Origin: Neisseriaceae bacterium JH1-16
Lineage (GTDB): Bacteria; Pseudomonadota; Gammaproteobacteria; Burkholderiales; Chromobacteriaceae
Assembly (NCBI GenBank): GCA_025989215.1
Contig: JAPDNP010000002.1
Span: 434,001-498,000 of the forward strand
Direction: 5' to 3'
DNA length: 64,000 bases
Shown: positions 2,753-37,313 of the stretch, one piece after another
Layout: each line of letters opens with the position of its first letter
How positions within the stretch are numbered: position 1 is the stretch's first letter
The notes under the pieces: model-generated
Told to the model about the DNA's origin: nothing
The model's database searches: none
Seen by the model: only the letters and a program-made list of their open reading frames with translations
Made by a program: the position numbers and the translations under genes

Positions 2753-4000
<1,248 letters not shown>

Positions 4001-4036
4001 CTTTGACTCTTCCATCAAAGGTTAACGATGGGCCGA

Positions 4037-4262: not shown

Positions 4263-5369
4263 TTACTGCCGCACCGCGTCGCGCGGCGGCAGATCGTCGG
4301 CGGTGAAGAACAGGGGAATGTCGTCCTGCTTGTCCGCCGCCACTTCGGGCAGCAGCCGCACGTCATTGACCTGACAATCGACCATCAGCTCGCGGAAGGT
4401 GCCGACAATGCGCTCGACCGAATCCAGCGGCGACAGCGGCCAGACGAAGCCCTTCCAGTTGCGCTCGTCACCCGGAGCCGACACTGTGAAGCGCAGCTCG
4501 CCGTTGTCGTGGGCCGAGGCGATTGCCACCGGCTCCTTGCCCAGCTCACGCAGCGCGCGGATCTGGCTGCTGGCGAACACCTCCAGCGCCACGTCCTGGC
4601 GCGCCGCACCGCCGGCGACTATCGCCTGCATCACCGGCTGCGGCGCGCGGGCGATCGGGAACAGTGTCACGCCGTCCTGGTCTAGCGCCGCATTCAACAG
4701 CTTCATCAGCCCCAGGCCCCAGCTGTTCACCGCCGCGCCGAAGCGCACCGGCGGCTCGGCGCCCGGCGCCACCGTCACTTGGCCGACCAGGTAGCGCAGG
4801 AACACGCCCTCGCCGTTCAGCTCCAGCGGTGCGGCCGGCAGCTGCTGCAGCGTACGCGCAAGACCCGCCGCATCCTGGGCCAGATAGAAGAGACGCGAGG
4901 AATTGAGGCCGGCCAGCGTGTCCGGGTGGATTAGCTTGGCACCCAGCGCGGCGTCGCTGCCGGCGGCGAACACGCCGTGCTCGCGCAGCAGCGCATTGAT
5001 CTCGTCGATATTGGCCAGCTCGCCGGCCAGCTGGGTCTTCTGGCGGCTACCGGCCACCAGCACCAGCGGCAGCGCGAACGGCAGCGCGGTCGGGCCGTTC
5101 GGGTTGCGCTCCACCGCCTCGCGCAGCGCCAGCCACAGCGTGCGGTACGCCTCCTGCGACGGCAGCATTGCCAGCGCCACCGACAACGGCAGCAGCTCGT
5201 TGCGTTCCAGATAACCGATCAGCGCCGCGTTCAACTCGCTTTGCCACAAGGCCCGATCGTCGGCGTTGGCGGCATCGAGCATGGCCAGCGTCAGGCGAAT
5301 CAGTTCGTTTTTCGGAGCCACCGGGGTGTATTGGCGGGGATCGGGCAGGGAGACAAGCAAGTCGGCCAT
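4263..5369 (-). CDS. Conserved protein of unknown function, possibly SseB-like at the C-terminus
   Basis: 368 residues, soluble, no signal peptide and no membrane segment. The sequence alternates Leu/Ala-rich helices with segments such as RQKTQLAGELANIDEIN and ends in an acidic tail (FFTADDLPPRD). The arrangement of the second half, with VFASSQIRALRELGKEPVAIAS, is reminiscent of SseB-type proteins, but I cannot assign a family. It stands alone between a terminator and the gene-free region that holds the candidate small RNA. Confidence 0.8.
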   Translation of the reverse strand: MADLLVSLPDPRQYTPVAPKNELIRLTLAMLDAANADDRALWQSELNAALIGYLERNELLPLSVALAMLPSQEAYRTLWLALREAVERNPNGPTALPFALPLVLVAGSRQKTQLAGELANIDEINALLREHGVFAAGSDAALGAKLIHPDTLAGLNSSRLFYLAQDAAGLARTLQQLPAAPLELNGEGVFLRYLVGQVTVAPGAEPPVRFGAAVNSWGLGLMKLLNAALDQDGVTLFPIARAPQPVMQAIVAGGAARQDVALEVFASSQIRALRELGKEPVAIASAHDNGELRFTVSAPGDERNWKGFVWPLSPLDSVERIVGTFRELMVDCQVNDVRLLPEVAADKQDDIPLFFTADDLPPRDAVRQ

Positions 5370-5533: not shown

Positions 5534-5562
5534 TTGACAAGGGAACGTCCGATCTGGATAAT
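5534..5562 (+). promoter_or_regulatory. Near-consensus sigma70 promoter of the candidate small RNA
   Basis: TTGACA at 5534-5539, a 17-base spacer, and GATAAT at 5557-5562. This is one of the best promoter matches in the window and no protein gene lies downstream on this strand before 8193. Confidence 0.85.
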
Positions 5563-5568
5563 CCGTCC

Positions 5569-5661
5569 TTGTTGAGATGCAGCAATTGCTTCTTGATAGT
5601 TTCTCCTCTATTTCTCCTTTGTAGACTTGGCGCGGACCTCTCGGATCCGCGCATTTTTTTT
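5569..5661 (+). ncRNA. Candidate small regulatory RNA with two UUCUCCU motifs
   Basis: Predicted transcript of about 93 nucleotides between the promoter at 5534-5562 and an intrinsic terminator (GCGCGGA at 5630-5636 paired with TCCGCGC at 5646-5652, then eight T at 5654-5661). The middle holds two identical heptamers, TTCTCCT at 5601-5607 and 5612-5618, in a C/U-rich stretch likely to be single-stranded. These are complementary to AGGAGAA Shine-Dalgarno sequences. Trans-acting RNAs with exposed anti-Shine-Dalgarno motifs are known in proteobacteria, including Neisseria. The promoter, terminator and motif repeats are seen directly; the RNA itself and its targets are inference. I do not recognise a named family. 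Confidence 0.72.
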
Positions 5662-6132: not shown

Positions 6133-7986
6133 TTAGCGCTCGACCTGGCTGACGTCGCGCACCGCGCCGGTATCGGCACTAGTGGTCATCGCCGCATAGG
6201 CGCGCAGCGCCGGCGTCACCACACGCTGACGGTCGACCGGCTTCCAGGCCGCTGCGCCCTTGGCGTTCATCGCATTGCGACGGGCATTCAGCTCGGCTTC
6301 GCTGACCAGCAACTTGATCGTCCGGTTCGGGATATCGATCTCGATGGTATCGCCCTCTTCCACCAGACCGATCGCGCCGCCCTCGGCCGCTTCCGGCGAC
6401 ACGTGGCCGATCGACAGACCCGAGGTACCGCCTGAGAAACGACCGTCGGTCAGCAGCGCGCATTCCTTGCCCAGGCCCTTGGACTTCAGGTACGAGGTCG
6501 GGTAGAGCATTTCCTGCATGCCCGGACCGCCCTTCGGGCCTTCGTAACGAATCACCACGATGTCGCCGGCGACGATCTCATCGGCGAGGATGCCTTCCAC
6601 CGAATCGTCCTGGCTCTCGAAGATGCGCGCACGGCCGGTGAACTTCAGGATCGAATCGTCGACGCCGGCAGTCTTCACGATGCAGCCGCGCTCGGCGATG
6701 TTGCCGTACAGCACGGCGAGGCCACCGTCCTGGCTGTAGGCGTGCTCCTTGTCGCGGATGCAACCTTCGGCGCGATCGTTGTCCAGCTCCGGGTAGCGCA
6801 TGCTTTGCGAGAACGCGATGGTGGTCGCCACCCCGCCCGGGGCCGCACGGTACAGCTTGTGCGACTCGCTGTCGGCGTCGTTGCGCATGATGTCCCAGCG
6901 CGCGAACGCGTCGGCCAAGGTCTTGCTGTGCACGGTCGGCAGGTCGGCGTGGATCAGGCCGGCGCGGTCGAGTTCGGACAGGATGCCCAGCACGCCGCCG
7001 GCACGGTGCACGTCTTCCATATGATACTTCTGGGTGGCCGGGGCCACCTTGCACAGGCACGGCACGCCGCGGCTGATACGGTCGATGTCGGCCATCTTGA
7101 AGTCGACACCGGCTTCGTGGGCGGCGGCCAACAGGTGCAGCACGGTATTGGTCGAGCCGCCCATCGCCACGTCGAGCGCCATGGCGTTTTCAAACGCGGC
7201 CTTGGTGGCGATGCTGCGCGGCAGCACCGAGTAGTCTTCCTGCTCGTAGTGGCGCTTGGCCAGATCGACGATGGTGCGGCCGGCCTCGAGGAACAGCGCC
7301 TTGCGGTCGGCGTGGGTGGCGAGCAGCGAGCCGTTGCCCGGCAGCGACAGGCCGAGCGCCTCGGTCAGGCAGTTCATCGAGTTGGCGGTGAACATGCCGG
7401 AACAGGAGCCGCAGGTCGGACACGCCGAGCGCTCAACTTCCGCCACTTCTTCGTCGGACACGTTAGGGTTGGCCGCTTCGACCATCGCGTCGACCAGGTC
7501 CAGGCCGCGCGTGGTGCCGCGCCAGTTGACCTTGCCGGCCTCCATCGGACCGCCGGACACGAACACCACCGGGATGTTCAAGCGCAGCGCGGCCATCAGC
7601 ATGCCCGGGGTGATCTTGTCGCAGTTGGAGATGCACACCAGCGCGTCGGCACAGTGGGCGTTGACCATGTACTCGACCGAGTCGGCGATCAGTTCGCGCG
7701 ATGGCAGCGAGTACAGCATGCCGCCGTGGCCCATCGCGATGCCGTCGTCGACTGCGATGGTGTTGAATTCCTTGGCGACGCCGCCGGCGCGCTCGATCTC
7801 GCGGGCCACCAACTGGCCGAGGTTCTGCAGGTGCACATGGCCCGGCACGAACTGGGTGAACGAGTTGGCGATGGCGATGATCGGCTTGCCGAAGTCGCCG
7901 TCTTTCATGCCGGTGGCGCGCCACAGCGCGCGGGCGCCGGCCATATTGCGACCGAAGGTCGAGGTGCGGGAACGGTAGTGAGGCAT
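6133..7986 (-). CDS. ilvD: Dihydroxy-acid dehydratase
   Basis: Dehydrates 2,3-dihydroxy acids to the 2-keto acids of valine, isoleucine and leucine synthesis; iron-sulfur and Mg-dependent cytoplasmic enzyme. 617 residues from the start at 7986, which has an AAAGGA ribosome site; the frame continues upstream to 8109 without a ribosome site. Iron-sulfur ligands are visible as Cys122 in ISNCDK and Cys195 in CPTCGSC. It is monocistronic, divergent from lgt, and its leader carries one copy of the dispersed 10-mer at 8015. Confidence 0.97.
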
Positions 7987-8145
7987 GGTGATTCCTTTGT
8001 CAGCTAATCTTTTGTTCGGCCAACGTTCCGGCGTTTTGCGATGGCGTAACATCGCTGCACTACCGTGTCCCCCGGGATACCAGATAAACGGCGAATAGCG
8101 TCGAGGCATTCGATTGGAATGCGCGACGCTCGGGAACGCTTTCCG

Positions 8146-24056: not shown

Positions 24057-24228
24057 GCATTTCTCCTTGTGTTTTGACCAGACAGCTATTGATATTGGAT
24101 GTGCTGTCTTGTTGGCGTGGCCAAAGGCCTAAAAGCGGGACTGCTGCGCATGAACAGCCGTCCCACCGAAATCAGACGTAAAGCAACTCCTGGATAAATC
24201 GTGAACGCGAGGATCGTTGGCGCTGTTA

Positions 24229-37237: not shown

Positions 37238-37313
37238 GACTCTCTCCTTCTACTCGCTACAACGGCAGACCCCGGATCGCGGAGCCTGCCTCTTTCAGTA
37301 TGACTTGTGACGC

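Follow-up and report, generated by a model that had tools for sequence, protein, structure and literature searches.

A short intergenic interval of the window (the whole 64-kb stretch of DNA analyzed here) carries a promoter, a repeated C/U-rich motif and a terminator, raising the question of which RNA is made from it and what that RNA might do. The preliminary description had read the interval as an orphan small RNA that masks ribosome-binding sites in trans.

A compact small RNA gene between opposing neighbors

The elements on which that reading was built, namely TTGACA and GATAAT separated by 17 nt, a TTCTCCT motif present twice at a distance of 11 nt and a terminator that runs into eight T, were all confirmed in the sequence. 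The features of the locus are as follows:

2753..4018, minus strand: glyA, serine hydroxymethyltransferase, the second gene on that side
4263..5369, minus strand: divergent neighbor, 368 aa, uncharacterized, a conserved marker of the locus
5534..5539, plus strand: -35 box TTGACA (sequence and promoter scan)
5557..5562, plus strand: -10 box GATAAT, 17-nt spacer from the -35 box (sequence and promoter scan)
5563..5569, plus strand: discriminator CCGTCCT, 5/7 G/C
about 5569..5661, plus strand: RF02877 small RNA, predicted transcript of ~93 nt, 5' end placed from the family model and the promoter
5569..5599, plus strand: stem-loop 1 (SL1), from the fold; nine pairs with compensatory changes
5601..5607, plus strand: anti-Shine-Dalgarno motif 1 (UUCUCCU), in the strand linking SL1 and SL2
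5607..5625, plus strand: stem-loop 2 (SL2), from the fold, whose loop (5612-5620) displays the second motif; no compensatory change
5612..5618, plus strand: anti-Shine-Dalgarno motif 2 (UUCUCCU), within the SL2 loop
5630..5661, plus strand: stem-loop 3 (SL3) and U-tract, forming an intrinsic terminator; six pairs with compensatory changes
6133..8109, minus strand: ilvD, dihydroxy-acid dehydratase, the convergent neighbor

The promoter boxes carry 11 of the 12 consensus letters, and two promoter-like sites were found between positions 4000 and 7500 (shuffle mean 0.5), the second of them inside the RNA. The spaced TTCTCCT pair (11 nt start to start) occurs once in the window and in 0/100 shuffles, and the single motif seven times versus 3.6 expected. 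The terminator stem (5630-5652) is followed by an A and eight T (5654-5661); our terminator scan did not list it, probably because its uninterrupted 7-pair stem encloses nine bases while the scan accepts loops of 3-8. The RNA is predicted to fold into three stem-loops (-27.5 kcal/mol, z -2.76, with 2/200 shuffles as good), the minimum free energy and centroid structures agree, and both UUCUCCU motifs are predicted to be exposed, one in the linker and one in the SL2 loop.

The interval showed little sign of coding for a protein. The plus-strand ORF (at least 50 aa) that overlaps it lies opposite the 368-aa gene and ends at 5537. On the minus strand, ORFs of 60 and 58 aa also overlap it; these align free of stops at 90% of their length in only 5/37 and 2/37 of the relatives' loci, so a conserved antisense protein over the RNA gene is unlikely. 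An RNA from an intergenic stretch with a promoter might also be a cis-acting leader, or a 5' UTR fragment, of a neighboring gene, but here a conserved terminator of its own ends the RNA and the 368-aa gene and ilvD both lie on the opposite strand, and we give this explanation next to no credence.

A full-length member of the NmsR family

We report that the RNA is not an orphan, as the preliminary description had labeled it: the covariance model RF02877, named in Rfam "Neisseria metabolic switch regulator b (RcoF1/NgncR163)" (NmsRb/RcoF1/NgncR163), matches 5569-5658 end to end (model positions 1-91 of 91), with 92.6 bits, above its gathering score of 52. The traits of the family are also present, with three predicted stem-loops, a C/U-rich SL1-SL2 linker and SL2 loop, and two conserved anti-Shine-Dalgarno segments. 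In these respects, as in the kind of promoter and terminator, the RNA resembles along its full length NmsRA and NmsRB of N. meningitidis, NgncR_162 and NgncR_163 of N. gonorrhoeae, and RcoF1. It differs from these Neisseria siblings in its neighbors and in copy number, a feature outside the Rfam model: the siblings form tandem pairs, whereas its own genome holds a single RF02877 match.

Two other families came up in the covariance search. The model for suhB/mmgR (RF00519) gave a weak match of 29.8 bits, below its gathering score of 41. RF02278, the Betaproteobacteria toxic small RNA family that includes the bdhR1/ncS RNAs of Burkholderia and to which S17S is related, deserves more attention as an alternative identity, since it scores 37.6 bits on 5600-5660 and the window RNA has the same order of elements: a C/U motif, a short hairpin with a C/U loop and a terminator. 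This likeness of RF02278 RNAs to NmsRs, a C/U-rich single strand and a hairpin loop before the terminator, has already been published (PMC5688073, cited from part of the text). However, that score falls short of the RF02278 gathering score of 50, the 64-position model lacks the SL1 of NmsR and has the motif UCUCCUCCA, and the genome holds a separate, better RF02278-like locus with a terminator of its own (C16:251337-251405, minus strand, L213; 47.7 bits, also under the cut-off). Membership in RF02278 rather than NmsR is thus very unlikely.

Taken together, the window RNA is, with high confidence, the single-copy orthologue of the Neisseria NmsR/RcoF/NgncR small RNAs, with an anti-Shine-Dalgarno action deduced from its studied relatives. 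The RNA family, its architecture and its mechanism are all already published. A search of mainly open-access literature for the family outside Neisseria gave no such paper among the matches listed, and we make no claim of a first report. What is added here is the single copy at a conserved locus, the 368-aa neighbor in further families, the prpC prediction and the separate RF02278-like RNA.

The pairing core is kept while the stems change

We aligned 83 distinct sequences, excluding an 84th (L041) as distant. The core with its two motifs shows little or no variation, which is partly built in, as the pattern used to scan named genomes fixed most core letters. Of the 77 distinct sequences in which the fixed letters match, 76 nevertheless carry identical letters at the five core positions left open by the pattern; in 7/84 the fixed letters are unmatched. 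RNAalifold found compensatory changes in 15 of 22 predicted pairs, nine in SL1 and six in SL3, and none in SL2, where four of the five pairs never vary and one varies in a single sequence. The sequence of SL1 is near-constant in f1, the GTDB family of the window, and variable in Neisseriaceae. The pairing core has therefore hardly changed while the stems did.

The promoter is conserved as well. A match of at least 9/12 letters lies upstream of the RNA in 74/83 regions (the 84 sequences minus one with too short a flank), compared with 4.7 per 66 in mononucleotide shuffles. TTGACA is present in 38/38 f1 entries (the window, L002-L032 and L034-L039) and variable in Neisseriaceae-type loci; GATAAT is present in 37/38, with CATAAT in L036. 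Lack of conservation in relatives had been named beforehand as grounds for abandoning the small RNA reading, and this objection falls away, since promoter, both motifs and terminator are all kept. At one locus, L033 (G022, about 1500-1590; 57.9 bits), the first anti-Shine-Dalgarno motif has decayed and the motif in the SL2 loop is retained.

The distribution of conserved letters also bears on whether the RNA might work mainly as a protein-titrating RNA, namely an Hfq sponge, and not through base pairing. In favor of this, Hfq binding would on general grounds be well served by a strong promoter and a U-rich tail, but the near-invariance sits in the C/U core and not in SL1 or SL3. In the studied homologue NmsRA, mutating either anti-Shine-Dalgarno segment abolished the regulation of all targets except GltA, which depended on the second only, while mutations outside these segments had no effect, according to the parts of the meningococcal study drawn on here (PMC5362039). 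We regard a mainly protein-titrating role as highly improbable, and base pairing remains the preferred reading.

Proposed action and control

In N. meningitidis and N. gonorrhoeae, members of the family mask ribosome-binding sites through the two UUCUCCU motifs, blocking ribosome binding on mRNAs of central metabolism (PMC5362039; PMC9973317; both cited from part of the text). Because these motifs are published anti-Shine-Dalgarno sequences in Neisseria and the window RNA is a full-length RF02877 member, the trans-acting masking proposed from the letters alone gains support by homology. The same meningococcal source states that a compensatory-mutation rescue experiment was not possible, that NmsRB resisted cloning in E. 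coli and NmsRA slowed growth, that the levels of both meningococcal RNAs rise without relA, that NmsRA has a GC-rich discriminator and that only one of the two usual Hfq signatures was seen in the NmsRs (PMC5362039). The gonococcal members bind Hfq and are less stable without it, and the functions they control comprise amino-acid uptake and glycine/serine metabolism, with glyA as one of the targets (PMC9973317). The genome of the window encodes Hfq (99.1 bits, cut-off 61.7) and a ProQ-domain protein (59.2 bits, cut-off 27).

By analogy with these relatives, the RNA would be made during good growth from its strong sigma-70-type promoter, and its C/U-rich segments in the SL1-SL2 linker and SL2 loop would pair, assisted by Hfq, with the Shine-Dalgarno region of central or catabolic mRNAs, blocking ribosome loading and lowering mRNA levels. 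A rise in (p)ppGpp would then shut down the promoter through its GC-rich discriminator, freeing the targets. In this organism the RNA is likely to repress translation by covering ribosome sites, given the same segments, the 5/7 G/C discriminator and the presence of genes for Hfq and a ProQ-domain protein, and stringent control of the window RNA is plausible. Such control may not be assumed for the whole family, because in five f32 loci (L255-L259) the discriminator is AT-rich (TCTAATT/C, 1-2 G/C of 7), which suggests that the NmsR promoter is controlled differently there.

prpC is the best predicted target

Known Neisseria targets include prpC, prpB, gltA, sdhC, sucC and fumC, among which prpC, encoding 2-methylcitrate synthase, is an NmsRA target by reporter fusion in N. 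meningitidis (PMC5362039, from the part of the text used here). We compared the 32-nt core by duplex energy with the translation starts of 12 genes of the sdh-gltA-suc and prp loci in seven genera, with 500 control cores whose flanks were permuted around the two unchanged UCUCCU blocks; for this permutation test, the prpC start of G004 was set by hand. The prpC start region gave energies of -17.1 to -27.2 kcal/mol over the seven genera and the lowest value of the 12 genes in five of them; lpd in G002 and gltA in G008 scored better. The prpC permutation fractions were 0.000, 0.006, 0.052 (own genome), 0.074, 0.074, 0.224 and 0.644, falling below 0.05 in 2/7 genera, and their combined Fisher value of 9e-5 (with 0.000 entered as 0.002) is overstated, as related orthologues are treated as independent. 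In the own genome, gltA was weak (0.148), and the orthologues of three further Neisseria targets, sdhC, prpB and sucC, did no better than permuted RNAs (0.390, 0.462 and 0.604). From these duplex predictions, prpC appears as the best predicted target here and the most consistent across genera. The neighboring glyA was an attractive candidate as a gonococcal target two genes away and was rejected (energy -7.8, fraction 0.928, with an uncertain choice of start).

We also scored 43 genes of the window, called by a codon-usage script without annotation. Two candidate sites are listed with their energies in kcal/mol:

24057..24096, minus strand: possible target site, the 40 nt before the start of xanthine permease (pbuX); energy -26.9, fraction 0.014, post hoc
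37238..37277, minus strand: possible target site, the 40 nt before hydroxypyruvate isomerase (hyi); energy -25.3, fraction 0.042

Both sites lie in a catabolic cluster leading from purines through allantoin and glyoxylate to glycerate, which occupies about 18400-39100 of the window on the minus strand. The four lowest energies of the 43 starts all belong to this cluster, with allA (ureidoglycolate lyase, -24.6) and xdhB (xanthine dehydrogenase, -22.4) following pbuX and hyi, at permutation fractions of 0.014-0.044 that fail correction for 43 tests. Across the window, 6/43 starts fell below 0.05 versus about two expected; two of these six, near 56 kb, are weak and perhaps wrong starts. Five genes of the same cluster scored badly: allantoicase (0.956), glyoxylate carboligase (0.986), OHCU decarboxylase (0.916), glycerate kinase (0.776) and tartronate semialdehyde reductase (0.340). 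The hyi pairing did not extend beyond the genus, with fractions of 0.045 and 0.085 in the genus's two genomes and at least 0.2 in every other f1 locus among the 29 that were scored. As a post hoc result that fails correction and leaves these five genes unsupported, a purine/glyoxylate regulon was set aside as a lead only. Motif counts were likewise dropped as target evidence: AAGGAGAAA-N1-9-ATG occurs at 39 places in the own genome versus two for the reversed pattern, and GAGGAGAAA at 12 versus two, but since the motif pairs with Shine-Dalgarno sites of every kind, these are mostly counts of genes.

Distribution of the RNA and history of its locus

In a covariance search of 61 genomes (the window's own and 60 relatives), RF02877 matched 39, and the 37 matches over the cut-off comprise every f1 genome searched (37/37); the remaining 24 genomes gave weaker matches in two. 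An order-wide sample of 250 genomes contained 37 with a match, 18 of them over the cut-off (in f1, f32, f44 and f51), and several of the weaker matches are plainly of RF02278 type by sequence. The core-pattern scan of named genomes returned at least 80 stretches, some records being present more than once. The genera among the matches listed include Neisseria, Snodgrassella, Eikenella, Alysiella, Chromobacterium, Vogesella, Aquitalea, Pseudogulbenkiania, Crenobacter and similar genera, along with a few uninformative names such as Xenophilus sp. AP218F. These searches place a regulator of two human pathogens in environmental relatives. Copies per genome numbered one in the window's genome, two in G001 (f1), two in G167 (f51) and three in G265 (f51). 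The second copy of the sister genome G001 (C44:18634-18722, L032; 69.4 bits) has diverged and lies at another locus, and it is unmatched in the window's genome.

The 368-aa gene, whose product has no NCBIfam match at E 1e-10 and no Pfam match at E 0.001, stands beside the RNA in 36/38 f1 whole-genome loci, missing at L024 and at L032, the second copy of G001. It also adjoins the RNA in ten loci of three further GTDB families, four in f51, five in f32 and L041 in f14, the f51 and f32 loci making up nine of the 21 new loci from the order-wide search. At L261 and L263, also of f14, the gene is not beside the RNA, and neither glyA nor ilvD was found in the 3-kb loci of f51, f32 and f14.

The stretches from named genomes, at least 80, were split by organism name into 37 of Neisseriaceae type, 39 others and four from Go_ MAGs. 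Among the matches listed, none of the 37 Neisseriaceae-type stretches carries the 368-aa gene, ilvD or glyA, and 16 of them hold two RNA copies, 15 as tandem pairs 203-338 nt apart. Again among the matches listed, the 368-aa gene is present in 37 of the 39 other stretches, all with one RNA copy, and in the two misses (L067 and L086) the RNA lies at one end of the stretch; the gene is present in three of the four Go_ MAG stretches, which hold up to three RNA copies each.

The 368-aa gene thus stands beside the RNA in further families and is absent from Neisseriaceae-type stretches; therefore the locus, judged from these comparisons, appears to predate f1, and the arrangement in Neisseria appears to be derived. 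A functional link between the 368-aa protein and the RNA is possible. The presence of the RNA in environmental relatives and the near-constancy of its core open up two questions: which genes it controlled before its relocation and duplication in Neisseria, and whether the uncharacterized neighbor takes part. Some Neisseriaceae MAGs (L058, and L050 with L121) carry three NmsR copies in a row, L058 and L050 doing so beside the 368-aa gene and glyA; these triple-copy loci are perhaps intermediates towards the Neisseria tandem.

A second C/U-rich RNA in the same genomes

RF02278 matched 51 of the 61 genomes, 14 over the cut-off, with the NmsR loci themselves also weakly matched. A match away from the NmsR locus was found in 37/37 f1 genomes and exceeded the cut-off in 7/37. 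The window's own genome has the RF02278-like RNA described above, with a GGATAATCCGT stretch upstream of it that is shared with NmsR. The S17S RNA of Bordetella pertussis resembles the window RNA in having a C/U-rich segment predicted to cover ribosome sites, 27 nt of which are fully conserved across many Betaproteobacteria, but it is processed from a longer RNA and was linked to RF02278 by its authors (PMC11722255, cited from part of the text). The main text of that paper contains neither "NmsR" nor "Neisseria".

These observations raise the tentative possibility, which we judge doubtful, that NmsR is one arm of an old betaproteobacterial two-RNA anti-Shine-Dalgarno system, in which a separate RF02278/S17S-type RNA was kept in the same genomes and the regulons were redrawn by lineage. 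If so, NmsR would sit at a fixed locus by a conserved uncharacterized gene, with a regulon that here may include the purine-to-glyoxylate cluster, and the Neisseria siblings would be derived from that arrangement by relocation and duplication. A mixed alignment of NmsR and RF02278 RNAs left the 3' arms of SL2 out of register, and we therefore make no claim about covariation between the two hairpins. A weak third RF02278 match of 31.1 bits lies elsewhere in the same genome (G000:C11:618232-618299, minus strand, L214), where a TTTCTCCTCTCTCCC stretch precedes a terminator-like hairpin.
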